Of a stretch of DNA of 64,000 bases, positions 416-47,945 are shown piece by piece (the first letter of the stretch is position 1; each line of letters begins with the position of its first letter). The notes under the pieces were generated by a model. That model worked only from the letters and a program-made list of their open reading frames with translations, had not been told where the DNA came from and searched no databases. The DNA is from Psychrobacter immobilis (GTDB lineage: Bacteria; Pseudomonadota; Gammaproteobacteria; Pseudomonadales; Moraxellaceae). Location of the stretch: assembly GCF_904846235.1 (NCBI RefSeq), contig NZ_CAJGZN010000010.1, forward strand, positions 1 through 64,000. The letters run 5' to 3'. The position numbers and the translations under genes were made by a program.

Positions 416-561
416 GGTGCACTCCGCGTACCATTTAAGAACTTTATTTAGGAATTAAAAGTATTATTCAATAAATAGCGGAACGTTAAATCATTTGCAT
501 AGATAAAGGTTTTTAATCTATTGTTTCCTATTTATGCTTTGGTGCGCGAGGCGCACCCTAC
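412..561. repeat. Miniature element with GTAGGGTGC-type terminal inverted repeats
   Basis: Left end GTAGGGTGCACTCCGCGTACC (412-432) pairs with the reverse complement of GGTGCGCGAGGCGCACCCTAC (541-561) at 17 of 21 positions. The 150-bp unit has an A+T-rich core with no coding frame. Ends of the GTAGGGTGCG type recur in many proteobacterial genomes, often right next to gene ends. Here the left end supplies the stop codon of the upstream remnant. Transposition history is inferred from structure only. Confidence 0.7.
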
Positions 562-605
562 AAATTACTAATTTTCCACACCCATAATCTCATATACTTA
601 AAAAC

Positions 606-1148
606 CTACTCCACCAATTCCTCATGCGGATTAACTTTAGACTCACCTTTCTTACCATCTGGCTGAATTACAATAGGTAGTACCAACCCTTTAGCAAAGT
701 CATCAGACAGCACATAATCGTAGCGACTGGCAGCGACATCGGGCGTGGTATGAATGATAAGCGTCATCTCATTGCCATCGGTTAGCTCGTGTGAGACATA
801 GGTTTCGCTGAGCTGATCTAATGCTTTCGATAGTGCCTCGTTACTTGCCATGCTCACCGTCAGATTGTGCTGAGCGGTCGCAGCGTCCACTTTGAAGTAA
901 TCTGCATAGTCTCGGACGTTTTGACTATCGATGGCAAACGGATACTTATAATTAGTAGGGTCAGCAGGCTTTGCACCACTATCTACCAGTGACCAGTCGA
1001 TGGTGTCGGCTGCTGGGGCGGATGGATCTGCTGCTGTCTCCGCAGTTTGCTCAGTGGCATCGACAGAATCGGTAGCGTTATCGCAGCCTGTCAGCGCCCA
1101 CATGCTTGCCGTTGCAATTACCATCATACTTATCAGACGCTTTGTCAT
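606..1148 (-). CDS. Hypothetical lipoprotein
   Basis: A 180-residue protein with a lipoprotein signal peptide: MTKR, a hydrophobic stretch, then lipobox LTGC with the acylated Cys near residue 22. A Thr/Ala/Asp-rich spacer follows, then a mixed globular domain to the C-terminus. I start it at 1148 because AAAGGG lies about eight bases before that ATG; an in-frame ATG at 1175 lacks this. Asp follows the lipobox Cys, which under the E. coli rule would favour inner-membrane retention, but the rule is not reliable here. I recognise no domain and assign no function. It appears monocistronic. Confidence 0.75.
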   Translation of the reverse strand: MTKRLISMMVIATASMWALTGCDNATDSVDATEQTAETAADPSAPAADTIDWSLVDSGAKPADPTNYKYPFAIDSQNVRDYADYFKVDAATAQHNLTVSMASNEALSKALDQLSETYVSHELTDGNEMTLIIHTTPDVAASRYDYVLSDDFAKGLVLPIVIQPDGKKGESKVNPHEELVE

Positions 1149-4822: not shown

Positions 4823-5323
4823 GGGCGGACCTGTTAATTAGAAAAATGGCACTAAAAATACAGCCCTTATTACCCAATGATAATAAAGGCGAATTTAAAA
4901 GCGCTCATTTTAACATGAATCGCCTTCACTATGCGACCTATTCTATGAGTGGCGATTGCCGATAAGTTATTGATAGCGTGAGATAAACTGCTCATGCAAA
5001 GTAAGCTATCCGCACAGCAAAATAATGGCAAAAACAGTCTAGACAGAACAGTCACATTATCAGTTCAATCAAACTTACTTCCAACTATCATTCTCTACTC
5101 TAGTTCATTTTATAGCTACATCCTCGAAAGCATCATTATCGAAATACTGATTCGGCTGTTACTGGTCATTTGTTTTCTCATATTTATAAGTTTCTTTGAT
5201 TTCTAATAATAGGTTTTGGCACAGGTTTTGCTCCACCCTTGTTAGGGCTTATTTGTGTGCATTAATGAGTAAAAATAGTGCACCGATAAAATTTGAACGG
5301 ATAGATAAGTGTTTGGAGATAAA
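4823..5323. promoter_or_regulatory. Divergent intergenic region between ygiQ and amt
   Basis: About 500 A+T-rich bases. Short open frames here (for example 4994-5206) have no ribosome site and no recognisable product. The recognisable element is the sigma-54 promoter at 5216-5232. I see no clear dyad for the activator NtrC and no obvious sigma-70 promoter for ygiQ. Confidence 0.5.
5216..5232 (+). promoter_or_regulatory. Sigma-54 (RpoN) promoter of amt
   Basis: TTGGCAC, five bases, TTGCT: GG at 5218-5219 and GC at 5230-5231 are exactly ten bases apart, matching the -24/-12 consensus TGGCAC-N5-TTGC at every key position. Transcription would begin near 5243, about 80 bases before the amt start. 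Sigma-54 with NtrC is the classic control of ammonium transporter genes, so this implies induction under nitrogen limitation. Confidence 0.85.
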
Positions 5324-6721
5324 ATGAGAACATCATCTGTTGGACTGGACACGATAAAGACATTATTAAAACTATTACAACCATTAAAACTATCGCTAAG
5401 TAATAGGCTGGTGCTAAGTACAGTATTGTTTGCAGCAATGGGTAGCGCCCAAGCTGCTGAGGCCGACACATTGACCGTGGCACAGCTGCTCGAATATCAA
5501 AATATCGCTTGGATTATCTGGGGCGGGGTATTGGTGTTCTTTATGCAGGCAGGTTTTGCTCTACTTGAGAGCGGATCAGTACGAGCGAAAAACGCGGTAA
5601 ACGTGATGATGAAAAATTACACTGACATGTGTATCGGCGGTCTAGCTTTCTACTTGGTGGGTTTTGGGCTGATGATGGGTACCAATCACTCCGGATTTGT
5701 CGGCACGGATCACTTTATGCCAGTCGCGTTATCCAATATGGACTGGGCATTGATGTTTTTTCAGATGATGTTTGCAGCGACAGCGGTGACCATTGCTAGT
5801 GGTGCGATGGCAGAGCGCGTTTCCTTTATCGGCTATGCGGTGGCGGCCTGTTTGATTTGTTTGTTTATTTATCCCGTATTTGCCAGTTGGGTATGGGGCG
5901 GTTATTTCGGCGGTACTGGTTGGCTAGCTGAGCTTGGCTTTATTGATTTTGCTGGGTCTACAGTCGTGCATTCTATCGGTGGTTGGTTAGCATTGGCAGG
6001 TATATTAGTCATTGGCCCAAGGCTAGGCCGCTTTGCACCTGATGGCACGCCAAGACTCATCGCAGGGCATAACATGACGTTGCTGGCGCTAGGCGGATTT
6101 ATCTTATGGTTTGGCTGGTTCGGCTTCAATGCTGGATCGACATTGTCTATCACGGGCAATATTGGTTTAATCGCAGTCAATACTTTTGTCGCAGCAGTCA
6201 GTGCGGTGGTGAGCTATATGCTTATCTCCCGATCGCTCAACAAAGCTATTTTACTGAGCGATAGTGTCAATGCCAGTTTGATTGGTTTGGTATCGATTAC
6301 CGCAGGCTGTGCGACTACGACGCCTGTCTTCGCTATCATTATCGGTGTGGTTGCTTCCGTGGTTTATATCTTATCGTCGCAAGCGTTATTAAAATTCAAA
6401 GTAGACGACGTGGTCTCGGCAGTGGCAGTACATGGCTTTGGCGGGGCGTGGGGTACGCTCGCAGCAGGATTATTCTATACAGGAGATTTGTTTAACTTAT
6501 CACGGCTTGGCGTACAAGCGCTAGGCGTCGGCGTGGCGTTAGGCTGGGGACTGGGATTGGGGCTAGTGATGTATAAGCTTATCGATTTAAGCTTTGGGTT
6601 AAAAGCAAGCCGCTTACATGAGCAGCGTGGCCTTGATTATACCGAGCATGCAGAGCTTGGTTACCCTGAGTTCCAAAAGCAGATGTTCGATGCGAAAAGC
6701 CTAACTGAGCGGCATTTATAG
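5324..6721 (+). CDS. amt: Ammonium transporter, Amt/MEP/Rh family
   Basis: A 465-residue membrane protein that imports ammonium. It has a cleavable-looking N-terminal signal (hydrophobic stretch ending GSAQAAEA) as in E. coli AmtB, then about eleven membrane helices. The pore histidine pair is visible: VVHSIGGW (His216) and VAVHGFGG (His370). The phenylalanine gate region and the family block FGWFGFNAGS are present. I start it at the ATG at 5324 because GGAG lies six bases upstream; a GTG at 5309 is the alternative. A sigma-54 promoter precedes it. No glnK is adjacent, so the PII regulator that usually accompanies amt must be elsewhere. A small unknown gene follows after ten bases. Confidence 0.95.
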   Translation: MRTSSVGLDTIKTLLKLLQPLKLSLSNRLVLSTVLFAAMGSAQAAEADTLTVAQLLEYQNIAWIIWGGVLVFFMQAGFALLESGSVRAKNAVNVMMKNYTDMCIGGLAFYLVGFGLMMGTNHSGFVGTDHFMPVALSNMDWALMFFQMMFAATAVTIASGAMAERVSFIGYAVAACLICLFIYPVFASWVWGGYFGGTGWLAELGFIDFAGSTVVHSIGGWLALAGILVIGPRLGRFAPDGTPRLIAGHNMTLLALGGFILWFGWFGFNAGSTLSITGNIGLIAVNTFVAAVSAVVSYMLISRSLNKAILLSDSVNASLIGLVSITAGCATTTPVFAIIIGVVASVVYILSSQALLKFKVDDVVSAVAVHGFGGAWGTLAAGLFYTGDLFNLSRLGVQALGVGVALGWGLGLGLVMYKLIDLSFGLKASRLHEQRGLDYTEHAELGYPEFQKQMFDAKSLTERHL

Positions 6722-6731
6722 GAGAGAGCTG

Positions 6732-7373
6732 ATGAATATTGATACTCAATCCGTAGACCAAGCTGTGACTGCGATGGCAGAAGTACTTGCCGATTATCTA
6801 CATCCTGAGGAGGTGCGACTACTTAAATCACAGTGGCAGCGATACTCAACGGTCTCTGTGAAAATGATGCAACAGTGCGTCTTGGATGCGACAAGGCGCT
6901 ATCCTGAGCTGCAAGCTTATAAGTCTGATATTAGGAAAGGCTTTTGGGCTACCTTGCAAGCGGACAGTCAGCAAACAGTAGAGGCTGATAGTCACAATAG
7001 CCATAATGGTCATAATAAAGCAATCAAAGCGCCAGTCCCTGTCTCTGAGTTGGTTCTGGCATTTTATACCGTCATAGAAGCACTGCGCAGTCAGCTATCA
7101 GAAACAGAAAGTCGCAACCTATTTCTGACCATGCACCAAACTGTTTCGCAAGAGCGCACCTTCAAAGGGCATAGTCTTAACATCAGTCAGTTTCTAGAAG
7201 GCAATCGCCCGTCCGTACCTGATAATGAGCACCTGTTGAATAATTTGATGCAGCTGGCTTATGTATGCTTATGCGATGTTGCAGGCCCTGTCGAAGCAGA
7301 TGAGATGATGTTTCGAGCGGCAGAGAAGGCGAAACAAAACTACCCGAAAACATTGGTCGAAAAGTTATTCTAA
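6732..7373 (+). CDS. Hypothetical protein, probably co-transcribed with amt
   Basis: A 213-residue soluble protein with no signal peptide or membrane helix, mostly helical by composition. Its ATG is ten bases after the amt stop and has GGAGAG seven bases upstream, so it should share the amt transcript and its nitrogen control. A His/Asn-rich insert (DSHNSHNGHNK, about residues 91-101) splits two helical halves. I do not recognise the family. Context suggests a role in nitrogen assimilation or in regulation of the transporter, but nothing in the sequence shows it. It is not a PII protein: the T-loop and PII signatures are absent. Confidence 0.7.
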   Translation: MNIDTQSVDQAVTAMAEVLADYLHPEEVRLLKSQWQRYSTVSVKMMQQCVLDATRRYPELQAYKSDIRKGFWATLQADSQQTVEADSHNSHNGHNKAIKAPVPVSELVLAFYTVIEALRSQLSETESRNLFLTMHQTVSQERTFKGHSLNISQFLEGNRPSVPDNEHLLNNLMQLAYVCLCDVAGPVEADEMMFRAAEKAKQNYPKTLVEKLF

Positions 7374-7384
7374 AATGTTGAGTG

Positions 7385-7427
7385 GGCACGTTACGGGTGG
7401 GTACGGAATACCTTTCGATAACGTGCC
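7385..7427. other. Inverted repeat downstream of the amt operon
   Basis: GGCACGTTA (7385-7393) and TAACGTGCC (7419-7427) are perfect complements separated by 25 bases. No U run follows, so it may be a weak or factor-assisted transcript end or a processing site rather than a classic terminator. Confidence 0.45.
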
Positions 7428-7528
7428 TTATATAAAAGGGCTTTTATAACGTAACTGTCATGATGTAGCTTTCATAACGCACTTTGAAACTTGATACTAT
7501 ACGATGAGCGGTCTAGTAGTTTAACGAT

Positions 7529-8278
7529 CTAATCTAATAACTGAAGCGGGAAAGTAACCACGTCAAAGGCGAGGGCAAAGGGTAGCAGTACTAGCTTTTG
7601 TGCGCCATTTGGACCGCTACGAGTGACGACATCCTGCTGAGTTTGTGTATAGAAACTCACCGTATATGGTTTGGTCAGTGCGCGATAGTTTGACTGAATC
7701 AATCCTAAGTTACTAACTTGCGGATAGATAGCGCCTTTGACAGGAACGCTAAAACAAAAGCGCTGAGCATTGATACGTTGATCGCTCGCTGAGGTACACT
7801 CTTTACCGTTGTTTTGCAAAAAGAACTGATAGTCTGAGCGCCCAAACTCATCTTTTAATTTAGCATAAGACAGTTTCATCTCACCTTGGAAGTACCCATC
7901 GTTATTGGGTACATGAAAGCTCATGTCGTTATCCACTTGAATGTTTTTTTGCGTGAGGTTACTCAGTAAGTTCACCATTTCTGTCCCACCTTGGGTGAGA
8001 ACGTAGCTGTTCTTTTCTCCTACGATAACCATTGACGCGTTTGGTATTTTTGGTAACGCTTGCGCAGGACGACCAAAAGCAACAATTTGATCTTCAGACA
8101 GAATTTGCTTCGTCGTGTTTGTGGTGACGTGTCCGCTATTGTCTAATAGCGAGCTGGTCGCACAGCCTGAGCTGGCTAGTACCGTAGCAAACAAAGCGCC
8201 TGCTATTACCTTTTTTGAATTTGACGGTTTTAGTAACGCTTTCATGTTGTTGTTATCAGCGTTTGTATGGTCAATCAT
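7529..8278 (-). CDS. Hypothetical lipoprotein
   Basis: A 249-residue protein with a long N-region, a hydrophobic segment and lipobox ASSGC (Cys39 from this start). I use the ATG at 8278 because AGGAAG lies seven to nine bases before it; the inner ATG at 8245 would give a more usual signal length but lacks a ribosome site. The mature part has two Cys (KECTS, RFCFS) that could form a disulfide. It ends with a hydrophobic segment (FALAFDVVTFPLQLL) of the kind seen at the end of several small envelope lipoproteins. I do not recognise the family and assign no function. Confidence 0.7.
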   Translation of the reverse strand: MIDHTNADNNNMKALLKPSNSKKVIAGALFATVLASSGCATSSLLDNSGHVTTNTTKQILSEDQIVAFGRPAQALPKIPNASMVIVGEKNSYVLTQGGTEMVNLLSNLTQKNIQVDNDMSFHVPNNDGYFQGEMKLSYAKLKDEFGRSDYQFFLQNNGKECTSASDQRINAQRFCFSVPVKGAIYPQVSNLGLIQSNYRALTKPYTVSFYTQTQQDVVTRSGPNGAQKLVLLPFALAFDVVTFPLQLLD

Positions 8279-8442
8279 GATTAGGCTTCCTTGTCTAACA
8301 AATGGGCTTACGAAATTAACTATCGAGTTTTTATTTCTTCTCGGATGTCTGGTGAATATCGTACAGTGTTTATATGTAACTTAGCTACTTATCATCCATT
8401 GTCATATGATAGGTAAGTGTAGCTGAGACTGTTAAATTATAA

Positions 8443-8910
8443 TTAATCTAGCGTGATTTTGGTTCCACTCTTGGTAAAGTTCATCACAAACTGACTCTTA
8501 AAGTTGCGTACATTATTTTCGTAAGTCAGCAAGCTGCGCGTGAACTGGTGGTAGTCGCTCATGTTCTTTGCATTGACCATCAGCATAAAATCAAAATCGC
8601 CAGATACTTCATAACAGCTCATCACTTGCGACTGCGCATCCATCAAACGCTCAAATCGATGTTGCATCGACGTATTGGAGCGCTCCATTTCTATCATCAC
8701 CACTGCGGTCAGACCGTAACCCACTTTATTAGGACTAACGATGGCGACTTGTTTGGTAATCACGCCGCTATCTATCAATGCTTGAATGCGACGCTGAGCC
8801 GTCGCAATAGAAACGTGCACTCGTTCTGCGACAGTTTTAAGCGGTAATGTCGCATCATCTTGCAATAAGTTCAAAATGGCTTTATCGGTGTCATCTAGAT
8901 GCTGACTCAT
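8443..8910 (-). CDS. Lrp/AsnC family transcriptional regulator
   Basis: A 155-residue regulator of the leucine-responsive protein family. The N-terminal AsnC-type winged helix-turn-helix is clear (DKAILNLLQDDATLPLKTVA...SIATAQRRIQALIDSGVI, residues 8-50). The RAM ligand-binding domain follows, with YEVSGDFDFMLMV near residue 99. Such proteins form octamers or dimers that sense amino acids and often control a divergent neighbour, here a drug/metabolite transporter. AGGA eight bases before the ATG supports the start. It is the standard length for the family. The ligand cannot be read from sequence. Confidence 0.9.
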   Translation of the reverse strand: MSQHLDDTDKAILNLLQDDATLPLKTVAERVHVSIATAQRRIQALIDSGVITKQVAIVSPNKVGYGLTAVVMIEMERSNTSMQHRFERLMDAQSQVMSCYEVSGDFDFMLMVNAKNMSDYHQFTRSLLTYENNVRNFKSQFVMNFTKSGTKITLD

Positions 8911-9176
8911 GTGCTTATCCTTTTACAGTAACCCTTTTATATAAATGGGTTTTGGAGTAAAAATATAATAAGAATTATGCATTTATTAAATTATTATCAT
9001 AATAACTTAGTAAATGATAAATAAATTGATTTATAAGGTAGTAATTGAAAAATAAATTCATTATTTTTGATAAATAGATAATTTATATCATAAGACATCA
9101 GTAGAATAATACCTATCAGCCAATAGTTACGCAACTTACGCACGCTGAGCTTCACCTTTTATCCTTATCTCAATCT
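8911..9176. promoter_or_regulatory. A+T-rich divergent promoter region between lrp-like gene and rarD-like gene
   Basis: The 266 bases are strikingly A+T-rich between 8950 and 9090, with runs such as TTTATTAAATTATTATCA and repeated ATAAAT blocks. Lrp-family proteins bind A+T-rich, bent DNA, so this is a plausible autoregulatory target. No single operator stands out. Confidence 0.45.
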
Positions 9177-10199
9177 ATGGTGCTTCCCATGTCTATGCAA
9201 ATGCTATCCAATACCTTCACTACGAGCCTCACACGCTGGCTGTTACCTAGTGTTTGGACAACTGGTAACACGCAGCAGCGCACGCTGATGTTGGGAGTGT
9301 CATTTGCCATCTTATCCAATATCTTGTTTGGTGTACTCTATGCGTATAGCAGCTTTCTGACGCCTTTATCGGGTACACAAGTGTTTATCTGGCGTATGCT
9401 GTCAATGTGGGCGGTGTTGGTTGGCTACTTATTGATAAGTGGACGTCTGGGATTGCACATCGATAAATTGAAAGTGTTAAGAGGCGCTAAGCAGTGGGCT
9501 TGGCTGCTATTACCTACGCCAATATTCCTTAGCCAGTTTTGGTTATTTATGTGGGCGCCAGTGAATGGGCAAGGTGTGCAAACCGCGATGGGATACTTCT
9601 TATTCCCGTTAATGATGGTAGTGTTTGGTTGTGTCCTCTTTGGCGAAAAACTAAGCCGTTTGCAATGGTTGGCAGTGGCCTTTGCTGCATTGGGCGTGGG
9701 TAGTGAAGTTATCCGTACGCAAAGTGTCTCTTGGGCGACGCTATGGGTATGCGGTACGTATCCCGTTTACTACATTTTACGCCGACTGCAGGGAATTGGA
9801 GCCGTAACTGGGTTATTGGTTGATTTAACGATATTTGCGCCTTTTGCGCTGGCTTACTTGTTCTTCTTTGCCCCAAGTAGTTTGGCGCTAGTTAGCGGCT
9901 CTGGTTTCTTTATCATGATGCTAGTAGGTTTGGGTGTGCTCAGTGTCTTGGCGATGAAGACCAATATTGATGCCAGTCAAATGCTACCAGTCAATGTCTA
10001 TGGCATGATGAGCTATCTAGAGCCAGCGTTGCTGTTTATCTTGGCAGTGACCGTACTAGGTAACCCATTTGAATCAGCGATGATCTATAGCTATGGTCTG
10101 ATTTGGTTAGGTATTGGGTGTTTGATTGCTCATGGTGTTAGGCAATTGCGTCAGGCTAGTAGAAAGACAGCATCGTCTCTAGAAGAGCAAATGGCATAG
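9177..10199 (+). CDS. EamA-family transporter, RarD-like
   Basis: A 340-residue inner-membrane protein with about ten hydrophobic helices in two EamA halves. The opening (GVSFAILSNILFGVLYAYSS) and the mid block GYFLFPLMMVVFG match the RarD branch of the drug/metabolite transporter superfamily, whose substrate is not known. It is longer than typical RarD because of about 38 N-terminal residues before the first helix. The ATG at 9177 has no convincing ribosome site and later Met codons (9189, 9195, 9201) are possible starts. It is divergent from an Lrp-type regulator, which suggests control by an amino acid and perhaps amino-acid export. Confidence 0.8.
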   Translation: MVLPMSMQMLSNTFTTSLTRWLLPSVWTTGNTQQRTLMLGVSFAILSNILFGVLYAYSSFLTPLSGTQVFIWRMLSMWAVLVGYLLISGRLGLHIDKLKVLRGAKQWAWLLLPTPIFLSQFWLFMWAPVNGQGVQTAMGYFLFPLMMVVFGCVLFGEKLSRLQWLAVAFAALGVGSEVIRTQSVSWATLWVCGTYPVYYILRRLQGIGAVTGLLVDLTIFAPFALAYLFFFAPSSLALVSGSGFFIMMLVGLGVLSVLAMKTNIDASQMLPVNVYGMMSYLEPALLFILAVTVLGNPFESAMIYSYGLIWLGIGCLIAHGVRQLRQASRKTASSLEEQMA

Positions 10200-10312
10200 A
10201 AAGTCACTGGCTAGATGTTATAAAGGTGACTATTTTATAAAACTACTACTTTATAAAGCCTATTTTTGCCAACTAACGTTTAAAATGATTTTTATAAAAT
10301 GTGATAGACAAC

Positions 10313-10352
10313 AAAAAAGGACGGCTCAGTAAATATTGAGTCGTCCTTTTTT
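10313..10352. terminator. Bidirectional terminator between the rarD-like gene and smpB
   Basis: GGACGGCTCA and TGAGTCGTCC form a ten-base stem (one G-U pair), flanked by six A on the left and six T on the right. It can end both convergent genes. Confidence 0.85.
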
Positions 10353-10370
10353 ATATAGATTAAATAACGC

Positions 10371-10847
10371 TTAATCTAAATGCTGTTTGAAACCGCGTTG
10401 CTTATCACGTTCCCAGTCACGATCTTTTAGCGTTTTACGTTTGTCATGCTGCTTTTTACCCAAGGCTAGACCAATTTGGCATTTCACCAGTGAGTTTTTC
10501 CAGTAACAAGATAGCGGTACACAAGCGTAGCCTTTCTGGTTGATTGCCCCAGATAGTTTTTCGATTTCACGACGGTTCAGCAGCAGTTTACGGGTACGAA
10601 TACTGTCTGGACTAACGTGCGTTGAGCTCGATAGTAATGGCTGAATGTGCGCCCCAAACAAGAAGGCTTCGTTATTGCGGAATATGACGTACGCTTCAGT
10701 AATCGTCATTTTTCCTGCGCGAATGGCTTTGACTTCCCAACCTTGTAATGCCAGTCCTGCCTCAAAGGTTTCTTCGATAAAATACTCATGACGCGCCTTT
10801 TTATTGGCGCAAATCTGATTATCTGGCTTTTTTGATTTTTTTGACAT
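10371..10847 (-). CDS. smpB: SsrA-binding protein SmpB
   Basis: A 158-residue protein that binds tmRNA and delivers it to stalled ribosomes for trans-translation. Family marks are clear: [26 protein letters not shown] near the N-terminus, NRREIEKL, and the basic C-terminal tail ([17 protein letters not shown]) that enters the mRNA channel. The start at 10847 has GGAG at good spacing; an upstream in-frame ATG at 10871 would add eight unneeded residues. Length equals E. coli SmpB (160). The gene stands alone, convergent with the rarD-like gene. No ssrA gene is seen in the window. Confidence 0.95.
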
Positions 10848-11047
10848 AATTTCTCCATAAGGATGACCCAAAACACAGGCTCCTTATTTAATCAGTCCCA
10901 CTAATTCCTCATCCTAATCCAATAACTGGTCTTGTTTTTTATTTCGATTATGAGATGGATGAGTCGAACTGCCTATTGTATCAAAGCCTCTGGTGAAAAG
11001 GTAAATCAGCTGTTAGGACAAATGTAGCAGATAAGTATTAAGTTTGA

Positions 11048-36666: not shown

Positions 36667-39600
36667 ATGCTGCAAGTATCACGAATACTGACATTATTAC
36701 AAAAATTCACGGCAAGAACCTTAGTAGAGAGTAGACCTAGCATGGCATATAAAAAACGTTTCGACACCAGTAGTGCTTATGGTCAGCTGATCATACTGGT
36801 GTTTTTGCCTATCTGTGTGTTGGCAGCAGTAGGCGGCATTTTGGTATTTCACGAAACCATGCGCGCAAGCGACTCTGAACAAGAAGTATTGGCCGAAGCG
36901 GTACTTATTCGTTATACACCAGTCATAGCTGAACTGATTCCTGAGCTGCTAGAACAAGAGCGCCAGCAAGTAGGGAGTAGTGCTGAGAGGACCCAGCAAG
37001 CGGCAATGACGACGCTAGAGGGTATCCAAGATAAGCTTGGACGTATGCAGTCTGAGCAGCATGTACAGCGCATTGCTATTATTAATGAAGGCAATCAAAT
37101 ACTAGCAACAGTCGGTTATGGTCTCAATGAAGAGTGGCCGCTAATCAGTGATTCCGCAAGCTTTTTGTCACAACGACCAACGCCTGTAGGCACAGCGTAT
37201 GGCAGTGTGTTGGGAGAATTTGAAGGGCAGACATTGTGGTTGCTCGTCGATATGGATAATGAGCCGCTCTATATTGCACGCTACCGTATTGCGATGGCGT
37301 TAGTGATTACCGGCTTGTTTACTATTTTGATTCTACTACTGAGTTTAAATATCTATTCGAAACGTTGGATTGCTCCCATTTATGAGCTGCGGTTGCAGTT
37401 GCAGCGTACCCATGTTGATAATTTATACCAACCTGTACCCGTTGAGTCAGATGGTGAGCTGAATTTATTACAGCAAGATCTAGTCAGAACATTACGCCGC
37501 TTACATAGAAGCTTTCAAGAGCTCAAAGACCATGCCGAGCAGACTGAGGATGATTTACGGTTGGCATTTGATGAGATGGAAATGCAAAACATCTCTATTC
37601 GAAATGCACGTGATGCAGCGATTTCAACCAGCCAAGCAAAGTCTGCATTTTTAGCCAATATCAGTCATGAACTGCGTACACCATTGAACAGTATCGATGG
37701 TTTTATTAATTTGCTGGCACGTCATGGTGAGCTCAATCCTGAGCAGGACTTGTATGTACAGACCATACGTAAGTCCTCAGCACACTTGCTCGCTTTGGTA
37801 AATGATGTCTTAGACTTCTCTAAGATTGAGGCAGGTAAGCTGGTACTGGATCGCCATGAGTTCGATCTCTATGACACTATTTATGATGTGGTCGATATGC
37901 TATCTCCGGTCTCTGCGGAGAAGGGTTTACGCATGGCAGTACTGTTTTACAATGATGTGCCGATGCGTATCAATGGCGATGCGTTACGTCTTAAGCAAGT
38001 ATTGACCAATATTGTTGGTAATGCCATTAAGTTCACGGATAGTGGTGATGTGGTGGTGCGTGTGAGCTTAGATGACCACCGTGATAATTATCTGATGATT
38101 AGCGTGCAAGATAGCGGAAAAGGTATTTCTCTGGCAGATCAAAAAATGCTGTTCCAAAGCTTTAGCCAAGGCGATCCATCAATCACGCGTCAGTATGGTG
38201 GTACAGGGTTGGGTCTGGTCATCTCCAAACAGTTAACGCGCTTGATGGGCGGGGATATTGGATTTCATGATAATGCGCAAGAGAATATTGCCAATCAAGG
38301 TGCGACGTTTTGGTTTCGCATGCCAGCCCATGTCGATGTGCTAGAGGCAGCCACAGGGCAAACGATTGAGCTGCCAGTATTAGCACCATTGGCGAGCGAG
38401 ACCGATGAATTTAATGTGTTGGTTTGGATCAATCATACCGCTTCGATACAAGTACTCAAGGCTAGCTTGCAGTACTTACCAATTAAATTGACTCAAGCCA
38501 ACTCGTTGCCAGGAGTGCTTGAGTCATTAAAAGAGCACGGTAACTATTGGGATTGGGTCATCGTTGATGATGACACGCAAGACGATATGATGGCGCTCCT
38601 CAAGCAAATACGTTTGCATTATCAAGGCAAGCTTGCTGTATTTGGCTATCAAGTGGCGGCCGATCAAGCGCTACTCAATCGCTATCATGCCAACATACTG
38701 TATGAGCCATTAGACAAAAGACAGCTGTACGCGATGCTTGATACGCAAAGCCGTAGTACGCCGCAAAGCCTGCAGGAACCACGCTGGAAAGGGGTCACGG
38801 TACTGGCAGTTGATGACCATTTGCCCAATTTACTAGTGCTTGATGCTCTATTGAGCGAGCTAGGGATTCAGGTAGTTACTGCGAGCAGTGGGTTTGATGC
38901 TATCGAGATTATCAGTAAACAGCAAACCAAAAACATCAAAACTGCCAAGAGCGATAAGCAAAGCCTATCGAATAAAACGCAACTTTCTAAAGCAGAAACA
39001 CGTGATGAGATAAATAAGAAAACAAACAGCGCGTTCTATCATGAGGACACGAGCGCTGACGATAAAGCAGGTACGCAAGACAAAGACAATATTGATCTGA
39101 TATTTATGGATATTCAAATGCCGCGTATGTCAGGACATGAGGCGGCTAAGCAAATCCGCAATATCGAAAATGCGGATAGTCGTATCCCTATTATCGCTCT
39201 GACAGCTCACGGGTTGGCAGATGAACGTGACAAACTTATAGCCAGCGGTATCAATGACTATGTCGGCAAACCTATTAGCCAACCTCAGTTATTACAGGTG
39301 CTACAGAAATGGCTTGGTCGCAAGAGTACGACACCACAATTGACCGCATTGCCCGATACAGATTTGCAAAACTTTGGTTTACAGCATCCAGATTTACAGG
39401 GTGCTAATTTACAAGATGCTAATGTACAGAGTATCGACCCAACAGAGGCTGAGTTAACTGCTATTGACTCGCTGCGCGGTTACTCAATCAATGATAATGA
39501 TTTATCGAACGACTTACTCTCTAACAATGTAAATGGGCTAGAGACTCAAGCCAGTTCAGATATGTCTTCAGATACATTAACCACTACTTATCCAATAATA

Positions 39601-40356
39601 AGAGGAGACGGGGTAGATCGTAATAGTACTTCTGTCAGTAGCGAGCCGAAAATTACCCGTCCACTATCCCTGAAAAAAATCCGTGATGATTATTTGCGCG
39701 ATAGCCAGCCTCGTGAAGGCTATAGACGGGATACTGCGCGTGATATTCAGCCGCGCTATGAGAGCTTACGTTTACAAAAACAAGGTCAATCGCCACTACT
39801 ACAATCACCAACAAAGTCTATCAATAACTCTCAAGATAAAAGCCCTCAAGACCAAAGCTTTCAAGATAGAACAGCTAACGCTAACTCGGCTTTACACGAG
39901 CAAATCAATAATGACCTTAGTAACAATAATATAAGCAAAAGTGATACCTCAAACATTTTAGATTGGCAAGATGCGCTCACTCGTTCAGCGAATAAACCTG
40001 AATTGGCGGCCAAGCTTATTATCATGATGATCGATACTATCAATGATGAAAAACAAGCGCTTATTCAGGCATGGGAAGCGCATGACCGCAATATGTTGGC
40101 ACAAATTGCCCATCGTATATTGGGTGGGAGTCGATATACAGGTGTACCACAACTGCGTCAGGCTAGCCAAGATTTGGAAGATAAGTGCCTGCTGAATGTA
40201 CAGCATACGACACCTGTGCAATTTGCAATGATTGAGCCATATTATGAGGCATTATTAACGGCGCTAGACAACTTGCAAAAGGTGGATTTATCTTCTTATC
40301 CGCAGCTTAATTATCATCGCTTAAGCGAAAATGACATGACGTGGAAAATGATATAA
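36667..40356 (+). CDS. gacS: Hybrid sensor histidine kinase, GacS/BarA type
   Basis: A 1229-residue inner-membrane hybrid kinase. Order: TM1 (about 38-58), a periplasmic domain, TM2 (about 210-230), HAMP, HisKA with SHELRTPLNSIDG (His334), HATPase (NIVGNAIKF, GTGLGLVIS), receiver with acceptor MDIQMPRMSG (Asp815), a long polar linker and an HPt domain with AHRILGG (His1149). The neighbourhood cysM-rlmD-relA is that of gacS/barA, whose partner GacA controls Rsm small RNAs. The receiver has a polar insert of about 60 residues before its phospho-acceptor strand, and the linker holds a short pentapeptide-like run (DLQGANLQDANV). An ATG at 36739 is an equally good start; neither has a strong ribosome site. 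Confidence 0.9.
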   Translation: MLQVSRILTLLQKFTARTLVESRPSMAYKKRFDTSSAYGQLIILVFLPICVLAAVGGILVFHETMRASDSEQEVLAEAVLIRYTPVIAELIPELLEQERQQVGSSAERTQQAAMTTLEGIQDKLGRMQSEQHVQRIAIINEGNQILATVGYGLNEEWPLISDSASFLSQRPTPVGTAYGSVLGEFEGQTLWLLVDMDNEPLYIARYRIAMALVITGLFTILILLLSLNIYSKRWIAPIYELRLQLQRTHVDNLYQPVPVESDGELNLLQQDLVRTLRRLHRSFQELKDHAEQTEDDLRLAFDEMEMQNISIRNARDAAISTSQAKSAFLANISHELRTPLNSIDGFINLLARHGELNPEQDLYVQTIRKSSAHLLALVNDVLDFSKIEAGKLVLDRHEFDLYDTIYDVVDMLSPVSAEKGLRMAVLFYNDVPMRINGDALRLKQVLTNIVGNAIKFTDSGDVVVRVSLDDHRDNYLMISVQDSGKGISLADQKMLFQSFSQGDPSITRQYGGTGLGLVISKQLTRLMGGDIGFHDNAQENIANQGATFWFRMPAHVDVLEAATGQTIELPVLAPLASETDEFNVLVWINHTASIQVLKASLQYLPIKLTQANSLPGVLESLKEHGNYWDWVIVDDDTQDDMMALLKQIRLHYQGKLAVFGYQVAADQALLNRYHANILYEPLDKRQLYAMLDTQSRSTPQSLQEPRWKGVTVLAVDDHLPNLLVLDALLSELGIQVVTASSGFDAIEIISKQQTKNIKTAKSDKQSLSNKTQLSKAETRDEINKKTNSAFYHEDTSADDKAGTQDKDNIDLIFMDIQMPRMSGHEAAKQIRNIENADSRIPIIALTAHGLADERDKLIASGINDYVGKPISQPQLLQVLQKWLGRKSTTPQLTALPDTDLQNFGLQHPDLQGANLQDANVQSIDPTEAELTAIDSLRGYSINDNDLSNDLLSNNVNGLETQASSDMSSDTLTTTYPIIRGDGVDRNSTSVSSEPKITRPLSLKKIRDDYLRDSQPREGYRRDTARDIQPRYESLRLQKQGQSPLLQSPTKSINNSQDKSPQDQSFQDRTANANSALHEQINNDLSNNNISKSDTSNILDWQDALTRSANKPELAAKLIIMMIDTINDEKQALIQAWEAHDRNMLAQIAHRILGGSRYTGVPQLRQASQDLEDKCLLNVQHTTPVQFAMIEPYYEALLTALDNLQKVDLSSYPQLNYHRLSENDMTWKMI

Positions 40357-43040: not shown

Positions 43041-43081
43041 AAAAAAGCACTTATACGTTCACAGCGTATAAGTGCTTTTTT
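43041..43081 (+). terminator. Rho-independent terminator of the Bcr/CflA gene
   Basis: AAAAAAGCACTTATACG and CGTATAAGTGCTTTTTT pair perfectly around TTCACAG, with a T run on the right; 32 bases after the stop. Confidence 0.95.
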
Positions 43082-43367
43082 GTGTACTCTATATATTTTT
43101 CTTCAGAGCAAAATTAGATTTTATAGATATTTTATATGATGGAATTTATTGATTATAAACAAGTATATGTTTTTTATAGTTATATGCAGCCTTTGCTATA
43201 TATAGCTTACCTTAAATAATGACCAAACATAATTATTGCAATCATGAAATTAGACAAGTACTATCTAGCGTAACTTTCTGTAAGTAAATATGTATAGACA
43301 TTGCTTAACCTTGCTAGATTGTCAATTAATTAAAATGTAAAACAACGTTAGGTTTCAAGGATAGATT
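43082..43367. promoter_or_regulatory. Upstream region of the chemosensory-like operon
   Basis: The 286 very A+T-rich bases precede the solute-binding gene and must hold the operon promoter. Several TATAAT-like boxes occur and no single one stands out. Confidence 0.4.
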
Positions 43368-44237
43368 ATGAAGCAGTTATATCGAGCGTTACCGATTTTG
43401 TTGAGTGTTGGCCTATTTGGCTGTGGTAATTCTGCTACTCAAGAAAGTGCAAACGCACCAGTAAAGGAAAACACAGATAGCTTTGTGAGTAAGCTACCTG
43501 ATACAGCGCCAACATTGAAAGTTGCCATGACTGGTGATTTGCCGCCTTTTTCGTTCCAAGATGACTATGGCAATATGCAAGGCACTGATGTTGATTCAAT
43601 TCGTGCTATTGGTGAAGAGCAGGGATTCAAAGTCGAGTTTTATAAGGAAACTTGGCAAGACATGTTCGATAGCGTCGAAACAGGAAAGCGTGATCTAGCG
43701 ATTTCTGGTATTTCTTACAAAGACGATCGGGCAGTGAGATATGGTCTATCAACACCATACTTTTTCAACCCAGCTACTATCATGTATTTGGAAGGTAAGT
43801 TCGATATAAAAGGCTTAAACGATATAAAAGGTCTAAAAGCAGGTACGTTAGAAGGCTCTAAAGAAGAAGACACGCTAAAAGAGATGGGCAGTTCAGTTGA
43901 GCTAATTTCAAGACCTACAGCATTTTTGGCGTATCAGGATTTGGTTCAAGGTAATACGGATGTCTTCTTGTACGATATGCCAGTCTTGCAATATATCGTC
44001 AAAGGCTATCCTGAGCATAAAGTGAAAATTGTACCTTATGAAGCTGCAGATGCACCTTCAGCCCAGCAAGTGGTGCTCATGGCAAAAGAAAATACTCAGC
44101 TTATCAAAACGGTTAATGAAGGTATTGCCAAACTAAAAGAAAAAGGGACATTTAAAGAAATTGAGGCGCGCTGGTTGGGTGAAGCTGACCCTGCTGAAAA
44201 GAGCGACTCTGACACCAATACTAAGCAATTGAACTAA
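43368..44237 (+). CDS. Solute-binding lipoprotein, family 3 (amino-acid type), sensor component
   Basis: A 289-residue lipoprotein: signal peptide and lipobox LFGC with Cys19, a 25-residue spacer, then a type-II periplasmic binding fold (TLKVAMTGDLPPFSFQDDYGNMQGTDVDSIRAIGEEQG...). The entry block DLPPFSFQD...GTDVD and the DLAISGISYKDDR block match family 3 proteins that bind amino acids or similar small solutes. AAGGA lies at good spacing. No permease or ATPase is linked; instead a membrane CheA-like kinase starts 12 bases after the stop. I infer it presents the ligand to that kinase rather than to a transporter. Confidence 0.9.
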   Translation: MKQLYRALPILLSVGLFGCGNSATQESANAPVKENTDSFVSKLPDTAPTLKVAMTGDLPPFSFQDDYGNMQGTDVDSIRAIGEEQGFKVEFYKETWQDMFDSVETGKRDLAISGISYKDDRAVRYGLSTPYFFNPATIMYLEGKFDIKGLNDIKGLKAGTLEGSKEEDTLKEMGSSVELISRPTAFLAYQDLVQGNTDVFLYDMPVLQYIVKGYPEHKVKIVPYEAADAPSAQQVVLMAKENTQLIKTVNEGIAKLKEKGTFKEIEARWLGEADPAEKSDSDTNTKQLN

Positions 44238-44249
44238 GGAATTCTGAAG

Positions 44250-46433
44250 ATGGCAACCGTACCTAATGTTGACAATAAGCGCTATCAAGGTCTGATTATT
44301 TCAATTGCACTATTTTTATCTCTAATCGGTGCTTTGCTGGCGTTTACGTTTTATACCTCAAATTTATTAGAACGAAACACGGCTTTAATTGACCAAACTA
44401 ACCAAGTGGCAAACAGTGCACAGGCAGTAATTAAAGATCTTTTCGATTTAGACAGTAGTTATGGTGAGGATACTAACTCTCCACACATACAACGAGTGCT
44501 AAGCCGTTTAGAGCAAAATACTGCGTTGATTACTAGCTCGATTGCTGCTATTGAGCAAGGCAGTACAATTACAGATGCAGAAGGTAATAGCTATGACTTG
44601 CCAAAAATTGATAGTCAAGCACAAACCAATATTGCTGCGGCCAATGAGCAATGGAAAGCGCTAGAGCCCAAAATTCAAACATATCTAAAAGATGCTGATA
44701 ATATCATGGTAACGTCTGCTGATGAATTGACGCAGGCCGTTGAACAGGCGAAGACATCAAGTTTGTTTATTAACGATTCTTTGGATAATTTGACAAAAGA
44801 CGTGTTCGATAGTGCACAACGTCAAGCAACTACCATTCGTCTTATTCAGGTACTTGGTGTTGCCGCTATCTTTACCTACTTCCTAATTTTCGTATTCTTC
44901 TTTGTACGTCGTCTACGTGAGACGGATGCTGAAGCATCTGCCGCTCGCCAAGAAACGCAAGAGATTATGGAAACAGTAAATACGGGTCTTTTCCTACTGG
45001 ATAAAGACTTGAATATTGGTCAACAGCATTCTCGAGCGTTGAACAATATCATCGGCTCTGATAGCTTAGCAGGGGAAAACTTTACCAATGTCTTGCGTGG
45101 TCGTATCTCTGATAAAGACCTCAAGACCACCCAGCAATTCATTGAACAGCTCTATAACCCTCGCGTTAAAGAAAAATTGGTAGATTCACTTAACCCATTA
45201 AACAAAGTCATGCTGCATAACCTGTCTGACGACAAGAGTCTTGATAATCGCTTTTTGGATTTTAAATTCTCACGTGTTTATGACAATAAAGACATTGCTC
45301 GTATTTTGGTCAACGTTAACGATGTATCAGATGCAGTCTACTTAGAACAGCGCCTAGAAAAAGAGCGTTCGCAAAACGATATGCAGATTGAGATGTTAAC
45401 GACTATCTTGAATGTGAATCCAAAGATTATTAATGAGTTTATTGGTAATACCCAAGCGCATATCGAGAAGATGAATAACATCTTGAAAAATCCTGGTAGC
45501 TCACAATACGAGCTTGAAGGCAAATTGAAAGCTATTTATCGTGAAATGCACAGCTTAAAAGGTGAAGCATCAGCACTAAAACTACACAGCTTTACGAAGA
45601 TTGCTTCTGATGCTGAAGACAAGTTACATGCATTACAAAACCAAGGTCAGTTGTCTGGTAATGACTTCTTACCATTGGCAGTACATTTGGATGACTTGCT
45701 CAGCTTATCGAACACGATTGCGACATTGGGTGAGCGTATCAACCGCTCAGCACCGACAGCAGCTAAGTCGTCAACCGTACAACAAGCACCAGTCGCTACT
45801 CAAAATCCAGTAGCAGACCATGCAGCTAGTAATGCTGACTTTGATGGTGGGCTAGATATCGACTTAGACAATGGAACAGATGACGATTTATTGTCCTTTT
45901 ACAATGAGTTTACAAAAGAGATTGCTGCAAGACAAGGCAAGCAAGTACAGCTAAAAAGTACGACGCTAACCCAAACCAGCATTCCGGCAAATCTGGCAAA
46001 GCCAATCAAAGAAATCAGTATTCAGTTGCTGCGTAATGCGGTGGTACATGGTATCGAGTCACCAAGTGTGCGTCATACTACTGGCAAAACTGACATTGGG
46101 ACCATTGACTTGGAAGTGCAAGACAACGGTTCAAACTTTATGTTGGTTGTGCAAGACGACGGACAAGGCATCAACTATGACAGCATCCGTAATAAGCTGA
46201 TTGAAGAAGGTCGTTTCGGTACGGAAGAGGCAAATCAGCTTAGCAAAGGTGACTTGCTCAAACAGCTGTTCTCTTCTGGATTCTCTACTAAAGAGCACGC
46301 AGATGAAGACGGTGGCCGCGGTGTTGGACTTGATATCATCAAAGCAAAAGTAAAAGAGTATGATGGCAAGCTTAATGTAAATAGCGAGCTGGGTCAGATG
46401 ACACGGTTTGTCATTACTTTACCTAAAGCTTAA
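44250..46433 (+). CDS. Membrane CheA-like histidine kinase with HPt and HATPase domains
   Basis: A 727-residue kinase. TM1 (about 13-35) and TM2 (about 198-220) flank a helical periplasmic domain. A PAS-like domain (about 235-360) precedes an HPt with YREMHSLKGEASALKL, whose phosphorylatable His is residue 434. A polar linker leads to a CheA-type ATPase: LLRNAVVHGIESP (N box), VVQDDGQGINYDSIRNKLI, SSGFSTKEHADEDGGRGVGLDIIK. The protein ends right after LGQMTRFVITLPKA, so the CheW-like P5 domain and the P2 docking domain are missing. AAGGA is at good spacing. It must phosphorylate its own HPt and then, by context, the CheY-like protein that follows. The signal is probably delivered by the lipoprotein upstream. 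Confidence 0.88.
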   Translation: MATVPNVDNKRYQGLIISIALFLSLIGALLAFTFYTSNLLERNTALIDQTNQVANSAQAVIKDLFDLDSSYGEDTNSPHIQRVLSRLEQNTALITSSIAAIEQGSTITDAEGNSYDLPKIDSQAQTNIAAANEQWKALEPKIQTYLKDADNIMVTSADELTQAVEQAKTSSLFINDSLDNLTKDVFDSAQRQATTIRLIQVLGVAAIFTYFLIFVFFFVRRLRETDAEASAARQETQEIMETVNTGLFLLDKDLNIGQQHSRALNNIIGSDSLAGENFTNVLRGRISDKDLKTTQQFIEQLYNPRVKEKLVDSLNPLNKVMLHNLSDDKSLDNRFLDFKFSRVYDNKDIARILVNVNDVSDAVYLEQRLEKERSQNDMQIEMLTTILNVNPKIINEFIGNTQAHIEKMNNILKNPGSSQYELEGKLKAIYREMHSLKGEASALKLHSFTKIASDAEDKLHALQNQGQLSGNDFLPLAVHLDDLLSLSNTIATLGERINRSAPTAAKSSTVQQAPVATQNPVADHAASNADFDGGLDIDLDNGTDDDLLSFYNEFTKEIAARQGKQVQLKSTTLTQTSIPANLAKPIKEISIQLLRNAVVHGIESPSVRHTTGKTDIGTIDLEVQDNGSNFMLVVQDDGQGINYDSIRNKLIEEGRFGTEEANQLSKGDLLKQLFSSGFSTKEHADEDGGRGVGLDIIKAKVKEYDGKLNVNSELGQMTRFVITLPKA

Positions 46434-46494
46434 TCAAAATAGTAATTATATTGTCAGGGACGACAAGCACTTCATTAAAGGTAGTAGATAAGTT

Positions 46495-46857
46495 ATGTAT
46501 AAGTTAATGATTGTTGATGATTCAAATATTATTAGAAACCGTATTCAGCGTGCATACGATTCAGGAAAGTTCATGCTGGTGGCGACAGCGACTAGCGGTG
46601 TTCAAGCCATCGAAAAGTTCAATGTCCATCGTCCTGATGTAATCACCATGGACCTAACCATGCCACAAATGGATGGGCTAGAATGCATTGAGAAAATCAT
46701 CGCGATTGATCCTGAAGTACGTATTTTAGTGGTGTCAGCATTGTCCGATAAAGCCACTGGTATTGAAGCATTGTCACTAGGTGCTAGCGGCTTTTTGTGC
46801 AAGCCTTTTTCAGAAGAGGAGCTTGTAGAGTCTTTGTATGAGCTGATGCAAGACTAA
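46495..46857 (+). CDS. CheY-like single-domain response regulator
   Basis: A 120-residue receiver with no output domain. The acidic pair is IVDDS (Asp8, Asp9), the acceptor is TMDLTMPQMDG (Asp53), the Thr/Ser switch is in VVSALSD and the conserved Lys is in LCKPFSEEEL. It follows the kinase after 61 bases and precedes two CheX-like phosphatases. The ribosome site is weak. Output must come from protein binding, as with CheY. The target is unknown. Confidence 0.93.
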   Translation: MYKLMIVDDSNIIRNRIQRAYDSGKFMLVATATSGVQAIEKFNVHRPDVITMDLTMPQMDGLECIEKIIAIDPEVRILVVSALSDKATGIEALSLGASGFLCKPFSEEELVESLYELMQD

Positions 46858-46887
46858 TACCATTCATCGACCAAAGCAGATGTCATT

Positions 46888-47337
46888 ATGAAAGAGCAAA
46901 AGCTACAGATTTTTTTAAGTATTATTAGTAATTATTTTGACCAGTTTGGGGGAGAAGAGCTTATTGCCGATACTCCTTACTTACTAGAAAACAAACAGCC
47001 AAAAGTCCACGATTATACGGGCGTGATTGGTATATCTGGTGGCCAAAAAGGCGTGGTATATTTTTCGGCGACGCGTGAATTGCTGTCTTCAATATTAGAC
47101 AGCATGGGCGAAACCGATAAAAGTGAAGAGAACTATGTAGATCTGGCTGGGGAAGTGGCTAATACCATCGCAGGCAATGCACGCAAAGAGTTTGGCTCAG
47201 AGTTTCATATCTCTGTACCATTTGTGTTTAAAGGTGCGCCGCAAAGTATTGTGTTGCCGAACGATGAGCGTTCTTTTATCATCCCCATCACTTGGCATTC
47301 TCAAGTAGGCGAGATTGTGGTTTGTTTGCAAGACTAA
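46888..47337 (+). CDS. CheX-like phosphatase, copy 1
   Basis: A 149-residue protein of the CheC/CheX/FliY phosphatase class. The active motif ExxN is in DLAGEVANTIAGNA (Glu and Asn in the helix that inserts into phospho-CheY). It has the single-motif layout of CheX, which dephosphorylates CheY-type regulators. It starts 31 bases after the regulator gene. A paralogue follows. Confidence 0.88.
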   Translation: MKEQKLQIFLSIISNYFDQFGGEELIADTPYLLENKQPKVHDYTGVIGISGGQKGVVYFSATRELLSSILDSMGETDKSEENYVDLAGEVANTIAGNARKEFGSEFHISVPFVFKGAPQSIVLPNDERSFIIPITWHSQVGEIVVCLQD

Positions 47338-47372
47338 TGCTGCCACGTAATACAGATGGATATTAATATATT

Positions 47373-47822
47373 ATGGTTAAAGTAGAAAAATTGGGTGTGT
47401 TTCTAAGCTCGATCAATGCGTTTTTTGCGCAAATCGATGGCTCGGAAGTGTCAATTGATACCCCTTACTTGAACAACAACAAAAGCGCGATTGGCTTTGA
47501 TTATAGCGGTGTCATTAAGATATCAGGGCCTTTAGAGGGCTGCGTCTATGTCAGTGCACCAAGCGTGATGTTGCGAGAAGTCATCAAAGTGATGGGCGAG
47601 CCTGACTCTTCAATCACCATGATGAAAGATTTGTTGGGTGAAATGGCCAATACAATCTCAGGTAACGCTCGGACAGAGTTTGGTTCAGAGTTTATTATTT
47701 CTCCGCCGCACATTGTAGAGAGTGCGCCAAGCGTGTCTTATTTACCTAAAGACCGTCAAAGCTATATCACACCATTTACGTGGCATGGCTACAAAGCGGT
47801 CATTGGTATTTGCATTGCATAA
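47373..47822 (+). CDS. CheX-like phosphatase, copy 2
   Basis: A second 149-residue CheX-like protein. DLLGEMANTISGNARTEFGSEF aligns with copy 1 (GEVANTIAGNARKEFGSEF), and its ExxN pair is intact. The two share a frame-length duplication but have diverged widely elsewhere, so the duplication is old and both copies are probably used. CheX works as a dimer, so a heterodimer is possible. It is the last gene of the operon and is followed by a miniature element remnant and a terminator. Confidence 0.88.
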   Translation: MVKVEKLGVFLSSINAFFAQIDGSEVSIDTPYLNNNKSAIGFDYSGVIKISGPLEGCVYVSAPSVMLREVIKVMGEPDSSITMMKDLLGEMANTISGNARTEFGSEFIISPPHIVESAPSVSYLPKDRQSYITPFTWHGYKAVIGICIA

Positions 47823-47912: not shown

Positions 47913-47945
47913 AAAAAAAGCGATGCAAATGTGTCGCTTTTTTTT
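47913..47945 (+). terminator. Terminator of the chemosensory-like operon
   Basis: AAAAAAAGCGA and TCGCTTTTTTT form a stem around a 10-11 base loop, with a T run on the right; about 90 bases after the last stop. Confidence 0.75.

Follow-up and report, generated by a model that had tools for sequence, protein, structure and literature searches.

Organization of the operon

The DNA analysed here, 64,000 nucleotides of Psychrobacter immobilis (contig NZ_CAJGZN010000010.1, positions 1 to 64,000, from a genome of 3.2 Mb; hereafter the window), carries five consecutive genes for a family 3 solute-binding lipoprotein, a membrane histidine kinase, a stand-alone CheY-like receiver and two CheX-family phosphatases (Table 1). 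The lipoprotein and the periplasmic half of the kinase are exchanged between strains as one cassette, with the inner machinery remaining near-identical. The original prediction for this locus was made from the letters and their open reading frames (ORFs), and the five genes are present as it described them: all were recovered in the ORF listing, and the Pfam matches of all five proteins exceed the curated cut-offs.

The operon is bounded by an upstream hairpin and a downstream terminator, and its five genes form one unit. The upstream hairpin was absent from the consensus scan, probably because its T run sits within the stem. The lipoprotein and kinase are encoded by separate ORFs with 12 bases between them. 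Among the window ORFs no ATP-binding cassette (ABC) transporter gene lies inside the operon or adjoining it, in agreement with the proposal that the binding protein has no transporter beside it, and PADLOC gave no match to a defence system. The two CheX genes of the operon are the only ones in the genome.

Table 1. Features of the operon and its borders in the window, with the domains of the kinase (approximate limits marked ~; kinase domains in residues)
Feature	Position	Strand	Evidence
Hairpin with T run, AAAAAAGCACTTATACG-loop-CGTATAAGTGCTTTTTT, ending the unit of the upstream MFS (major facilitator superfamily) gene	43041..43081 (about)	+	Direct reading
Family 3 solute-binding lipoprotein	43368..44237	+	Pfam SBP_bac_3, 7e-33
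Exchangeable sensory cassette: mature solute-binding protein, first transmembrane helix (TM1) and periplasmic four-helix domain of the kinase	43512..44820 (limits approximate)	+	DNA identity, breakpoints
Membrane histidine kinase, 727 aa	44250..46433	+	Pfam Hpt and HATPase_c only
Kinase, N-terminal part: TM1; periplasmic four-helix bundle; TM2, ~199-222; PAS-like, ~245-358; HPt, His434			
Kinase, C-terminal part: disordered linker, ~505-542; CheA P4-type ATPase, 554-727			
Stand-alone CheY-like receiver	46495..46857	+	Pfam Response_reg, 1.7e-28
CheX-family phosphatase 1 (CheX1; E89xxN92)	46888..47337	+	Pfam CheX, 6e-21
CheX-family phosphatase 2 (CheX2; E90xxN93)	47373..47822	+	Pfam CheX, 5.6e-19
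Intrinsic terminator-like hairpin 3' of the last CheX gene	47913..47944	+	Consensus scan

Exchange of the sensory cassette

Domain-by-domain comparison reveals kinase pairs that are 97-100% identical intracellularly, the linker aside, and only ~50% identical outside the cell. The DNA identity of the window to a related locus, L035, is 97% at 43250, 45-63% over ~43550-44750 and 91-99% from ~44900 on, and the profile of another pair, L051 and L052, has the same shape. At the residue level the breakpoints fall after the conserved signal peptide and tether of the lipoprotein, and at the start of TM2.

Across 59 loci, the distance between solute-binding proteins (SBPs) follows that between the TM1 and periplasmic segments of the adjacent kinases (r 0.92). 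In partial Mantel tests on these loci, the SBP correlates with the periplasmic half when the cytoplasmic half is given (r 0.89, p 0.0005, which is the floor of 2000 permutations), and the correlation with the cytoplasmic half when the periplasmic half is given is -0.06. A linkage control on 54 loci gave high correlations of the mature SBP with TM1 (0.84) and the periplasmic domain (0.91), and weak ones with the signal peptide (0.40), the MFS gene (0.35), TM2 (0.30) and the PAS-like region (0.22).

The 59 adjacent SBPs comprise 49 of type A or A2, all found with periplasmic class 0, and 7 of type B, all found with class 1, besides 3 of other types. In all 56 typed Psychrobacter loci the type of the lipoprotein agrees with that of the periplasmic domain; fewer than 56 of these are independent, because some loci represent the same species in two collections. 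Most Psychrobacter kinases without an adjoining SBP carry unrelated periplasmic domains (12-19% identity); the exceptions are locus L194, at 49%, and a small number of class 0 loci where reading gave no full-length SBP frame. The sequence co-variation suggests that the lipoprotein is very probably the input partner of the kinase, and the cassette exchange and the complete matching strengthen the earlier proposal of a sensor split off as a lipoprotein that partners the kinase. The chances appear evenly balanced that this is a natural sensor-swap locus, in which recombination between the conserved signal-peptide and TM2 codons would replace the receptor together with the outer half of the kinase and so rewire the ligand of an unchanged relay.

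Two further patterns were seen among the lipoproteins. Between the close relatives L036 and L037 (~4850-5150), sharp divergence affects only the lipoprotein, in its central-to-C-terminal part, as if a portion of the binding protein had been exchanged by itself. Extra type B lipoproteins lie upstream of an A2 lipoprotein and a class 0 kinase in L068 (2179-5400), L073, L074, L075 and L208; they may be left over from an exchange or may supply a second input.

The lipoprotein and its likely ligand

The lipoprotein consists of a lipobox with Cys19, a tether of ~28 residues and the mature SBP, and the solved sequences closest to it are amino-acid SBPs, e.g. AncQR (4zv1). Alignment to amino-acid SBPs located Arg121, which in those proteins holds the ligand carboxylate, and Asp203, which holds the ligand amino group. 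Both residues, as well as Cys19, are unchanged in 67 of 67 lipoprotein relatives, and the protein therefore has the Arg and Asp ligand contacts by which family 3 amino-acid SBPs are recognised. Since the lipobox-bearing SBPs retain these two residues, the ligand is likely to be amino-acid-like, and perhaps differs among the lipoprotein types. Most members have Gly, Ser or Asn directly after the lipobox Cys. If the sorting rule of E. coli applies in Psychrobacter, such a residue would favour the outer membrane.

Architecture of the kinase

The phosphorylatable histidine of the HPt domain is His434, invariant in an alignment of 34 diverse relatives. The ATPase is nearest to CheA P4 both by sequence (phmmer to 1i58, 4e-28, residues 554-725) and by predicted fold (Foldseek, 3e-13), with ~31-35% identity to the P4 domain of T. 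maritima CheA in the fold search. The kinase thus combines two hallmarks of CheA, an HPt domain with its histidine and a CheA-type HATPase, and very likely runs on CheA chemistry. No CheW domain was matched in it at E <= 0.1, the chain stopping at the ATPase, and the relatives are alike in this respect. The alignment, Pfam and the CheW search together bear out the predicted combination of His434, a CheA-type ATPase and the absence of a CheW-like P5 domain.

The H-kinase_dim dimerisation domain (P3) also has no Pfam match, and the predicted disorder at ~505-542 leads directly into the ATPase; this negative is weaker than that for CheW because Pfam misses some P3 domains. No HisKA/DHp domain was matched in the kinase, which sets it outside the classical HisKA kinases. 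According to a published survey (PMC10542144), every CheA has Hpt, dimerisation, kinase and CheW domains (CheW in 100%); by that definition the present kinase, which has no CheW domain, is not a CheA.

The sensor half is predicted to form a four-helix bundle with which both TM helices are continuous, and its fold neighbours are the ligand-binding bundles of Vc1313 (ligand-binding domain), NarQ, Tar, Tsr and PcaY. The region following TM2 has a predicted alpha/beta fold with PAS/LOV neighbours at low confidence (predicted local distance difference test score, pLDDT, ~65). Pfam finds no PAS match in the window protein, and among the relatives there is only a weak PAS_8 match in one (E 0.006). 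The PAS domain of the original prediction is thus plausible from the modelled fold but uncertain.

The receiver and the CheX pair

The receiver retains Asp8, Asp9, Asp53 and Ser81 in 103 of 103 sequences and Lys103 in 102 of 103. The acidic pair, phospho-acceptor Asp, Ser/Thr position and Lys of CheY-like receivers are therefore all in place, and the description of a lone receiver with Asp53 is upheld. Receivers adjoining kinases of this class are 118-157 aa long by mechanical ORF start, and no output domain fused to the receiver was seen beside the relatives' kinases. CheX1 and CheX2 are 48% identical, and each combines a CheX domain with the ExxN motif expected of CheX phosphatases. The motif is intact in 80 of 80 CheX1 sequences and in 22 of 23 other CheX; in CheX2 the Glu is found in 82 of 82 and the Asn in 81 of 82. 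Two CheX paralogues with intact ExxN motifs, as predicted, are thus evident in the window.

Conservation and joint loss of the operon

CheX occurs in 84 of 105 Psychrobacter genomes, in exactly two copies in 81 of them. The order kinase-receiver-CheX-CheX is kept between the MFS gene and rpsB in nearly all Psychrobacter loci read; the operon lies at another place in a few divergent genomes, namely G258, G262 and apparently also G250, where CheX and rpsB are on different contigs. The persistence of this order at one site, between MFS and rpsB, in most Psychrobacter genomes makes the operon more than a chance association. Its frames are intact and its catalytic residues near-invariant across 29-99% protein identity.

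Other genera of the Moraxellaceae have the operon with one or two CheX genes. Beyond the family, in several families of the same order, the core is a kinase, a receiver and a single CheX, and in a class-wide sample 11 other genomes among 369 have the kinase core, which in most of them adjoins a receiver and CheX. The kinase-receiver-CheX core therefore recurs sporadically in Gammaproteobacteria. The second CheX is a feature of the Moraxellaceae, with one independent-looking case in locus L232. The lipoprotein is missing or of another type in several variants of the operon, and outside the genus some relatives have sensor halves of the PilJ type or dCache. The co-occurrence search in Moraxellaceae and beyond found the genes conserved together, and no transporter gene or CheW domain belongs to the unit in the relatives inspected. 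The five-gene set of the original prediction is thus not universal, the core being kinase, receiver and CheX.

In the main part of Psychrobacter, the MFS gene and rpsB abut in the CheX-negative genomes and the entire operon is gone. Only a CheX2 remnant is left in G172, and G077 has a broken kinase and a shortened receiver. No other kinase of this class is left in the CheX-negative genomes, and the matches that remain there are confined to the ATPase portion of other CheA-like frames, most of them larger. The kinase, the receiver and both CheX genes are lost together, which, with the conserved order, supports the claim of a single unit. Operon presence changes at least 13 times on the rpsB and tsf tree, a count that does not separate gain from loss; for sensor class the tree requires 15 or more changes.

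Three side observations concern related genes. A BarA-like hybrid kinase (HisKA, HATPase, receiver and HPt; window 36667-40356) lies just upstream of the operon and has the same position in relatives with and without the operon. A second related kinase with a receiver and no adjoining CheX is present in a Moraxellaceae genome (L159 of G010, 6316-10065, - strand), where a sugar-type (Peripla_BP_4) lipoprotein directly precedes the kinase, in the SBP slot. In three genera of the same family (g3, g4 and g6; L104-L107, L109, L110 and L112), a protein of ~320-330 aa combines a degenerate receiver-like part with CheX and is unlinked to an operon-type kinase.

Proposed mechanism and alternative explanations

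Gene content and order, the near-invariant catalytic residues, the cassette exchange and the joint loss are directly observed, and they probably reflect a two-component relay that derives from chemotaxis and whose receptor is detachable and exchangeable. In this relay the lipoprotein would bind a small periplasmic molecule, probably an amino acid or similar, and would dock on the four-helix bundle of the kinase. The signal would then travel through TM2 and the PAS-like domain, whereupon the CheA-type ATPase would phosphorylate His434 and the phosphate would pass to Asp53 of the lone receiver, to be taken off by both CheX proteins. The phosphorylated receiver may exert its effect by binding a partner whose gene lies elsewhere in the genome. 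Homologous recombination would replace the lipoprotein and periplasmic domain as a cassette, and strains could therefore fit different inputs to the same output.

Several points weigh against this relay. Physical linkage alone could carry neighbouring segments together; this objection is met by the failure of the signal peptide, TM2 and the MFS gene to follow the mature SBP, and linkage as the sole cause of the co-variation is therefore insufficient. The matching of SBP and periplasmic domain is not absolute, because the SBP subtype shifts within the A class between L037 and L036 with little change in the periplasmic domain, and because some type A kinases carry additional type B lipoproteins. 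Some kinases of the class have no adjoining lipoprotein, the CheX genes may have a role other than dephosphorylation, and the PAS-like step depends on a low-confidence fold.

A less likely alternative, though the foremost among the rivals, keeps the relay and takes the type IV pilus machine or the Pil-Chp pathway as the target of the receiver, so that the operon would be a second input to surface motility. No FliM match was found in the genome itself, which speaks against a flagellar chemotaxis output; the genome has pilus ATPases, and although cheW is absent near the operon, as predicted, two CheW matches lie elsewhere, on contig C2 (a 177-aa frame and a 2294-aa CheA-like protein; G000:C2:101665-111190). 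The C2 pair looks like a separate Pil-Chp-type system. The eight near-complete Psychrobacter genomes without a PilB match above the cut-off all lack the operon as well, well-assembled operon carriers outside Psychrobacter possess PilB-type ATPases, and many relatives' kinases have a PilJ-type sensor domain. But PilJ-type sensor domains are found in nitrate sensors too, and the PilB-less genomes fall in one clade, so that they represent a single event and the association is not independent support. An independent-pairs test gave 0-1 agreeing pairs of 11, about a dozen further operon losses occurred in pilus-bearing lineages, and many family members have no CheX at all. The phylogenetic profile was therefore dropped as evidence for a pilus link, and the targets suggested in the original prediction (type IV pili, a cyclic-di-GMP enzyme or an envelope function) stand as candidates. 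Apart from this question, four Psychrobacter genomes have no CheW match whatever.

It is improbable that the receiver and two CheX proteins merely act as a phosphate sink or buffer, draining their own kinase or the Chp pathway with no output of their own. Such a role would suit a receiver that stands alone with two phosphatases and has neither a DNA-binding nor an enzymatic output domain, and sinks are known for CheA-linked receivers (PMC10542144). Yet the receiver retains all active-switch residues, the Ser/Thr switch position included, across 103 relatives, its own kinase always adjoins it, and a sink needs no dedicated exchangeable sensor. We give equally little credence to the idea that the lipoprotein serves an uptake system encoded elsewhere, its placement being only regulatory, and that the kinase senses the ligand directly. 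ABC importers are the usual partners of family 3 SBPs, and some four-helix bundles, Vc1313 and NarQ among them, are themselves direct binders of small ligands. For AauS/AatJ, direct sensing by the kinase was not ruled out (PMC7386598). This idea is opposed by the 56 of 56 match of lipoprotein and periplasmic types within a single exchanged cassette, by a unit free of transporter genes in the relatives inspected, and by the occupation of the SBP slot by two different SBP families. That the genes are chance neighbours or a functionless, decaying remnant deserves almost no weight: the decay in G077 and G172 fits it, but it is refuted for most members by frames that are intact, a gene order that is conserved and catalytic residues that hardly vary over the range of identity given above.

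Comparison with known systems

The proposed exchangeable relay most resembles the SBP-assisted kinases (ChvE-VirA, TorT-TorS, LuxP-LuxQ, AatJ-AauS and BctC-BctE), in which a separate periplasmic binding protein is likewise the proposed receptor of a membrane kinase; here, too, a separate binding protein is encoded with the kinase. The sensor domains of VirA and TorS are helical bundles. ChvE-VirA is the classical precedent and AatJ-AauS the nearest for amino acids, AatJ being an amino-acid SBP required for full AauS-AauR signalling (PMC7386598). In contrast to these systems, the Psychrobacter binding protein is a lipoprotein with no adjoining transporter, the kinase has an HPt and a CheA-type ATPase with a lone CheY-like receiver as output, the dephosphorylating role is assigned to CheX, and strains swap the receptor half.

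In MBP-Tar and MglB-Trg, the binding protein docks on a periplasmic four-helix bundle. The periplasmic fold neighbours of the Psychrobacter kinase include Tar and Tsr, but in this system a kinase, rather than a methyl-accepting chemotaxis protein, is the receptor. EvgS and BvgS resemble the Psychrobacter system in coupling family 3 (venus-flytrap) sensing to a kinase; their binding domain forms part of the kinase itself, a HisKA-type hybrid that works with a DNA-binding regulator, whereas in Psychrobacter the sensor is a separate lipoprotein ORF, the kinase has no HisKA, and the fused flytrap is absent. The comparison with EvgS/BvgS drawn in the original prediction is therefore less apt than that with the SBP-assisted helical-bundle receptors ChvE-VirA, TorT-TorS, AatJ-AauS and MBP-Tar.

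CheA kinases of the Pil-Chp, F and ACF classes share the HPt His as phosphate carrier, the P4 ATPase, and CheY and CheX downstream. The Psychrobacter kinase differs in that it carries a transmembrane sensor of its own and lacks both a CheW domain and a recognisable P3, and the unit has no chemoreceptor, CheW, CheR or CheB. The CheX proteins resemble the CheC/CheX phosphatases of Thermotoga and Borrelia, and VC0377 of Vibrio cholerae, in their Pfam CheX match over the cut-off and ExxN motif; unlike these, they are a tandem pair tied to a sensor kinase and not to a flagellar chemotaxis cluster. VC0377 is a CheX-family protein whose role was noted as undetermined (PMC8789113).

No paper describing the operon was found in the full texts searched on CheX, binding-protein kinases and the pilus link, a coverage that leaves most subscription journals outside it, and the belief that no named system has this set is in line with that search. 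The combination of a lipoprotein receptor, a membrane HPt-P4 kinase, a receiver and a CheX pair, and above all its cassette exchange, thus appears to be new. If the proposed exchange is correct, bacteria change the ligand of a pathway with the output untouched, a natural counterpart of laboratory receptor swaps. It would also provide 50-odd receptor-kinase pairs, matched by nature and with clean breakpoints, from which the SBP-kinase interface could be mapped. The kinase-receiver-CheX core would be a recurring class for which no named member was found, and a genome without FliM makes the target of the lone receiver directly testable.

Leads to the output

A search for the output through gene neighbourhood was unsuccessful, no gene beyond kinase-receiver-CheX being conserved across the order or class. 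By Pfam, the neighbours have unrelated functions (ammonium transporter, penicillin amidase, TonB_C, NAD kinase, nitroreductase and UvrC). In L228 (G788), a receiver-Ser/Thr protein kinase fusion (9113-10354, + strand) begins a few bases 3' of CheX. In L232 (G665), two tandem kinase-receiver-CheX modules are each followed by a protein of the same family (5849-6721 and 9984-10919, - strand). These two proteins, of 291 and 312 aa, are 48% identical and have no Pfam match, and neither the window nor any other locus has a member of their family. Both the receiver-Ser/Thr kinase and the co-duplicated family are leads to the output, the latter as a candidate partner of the receiver.

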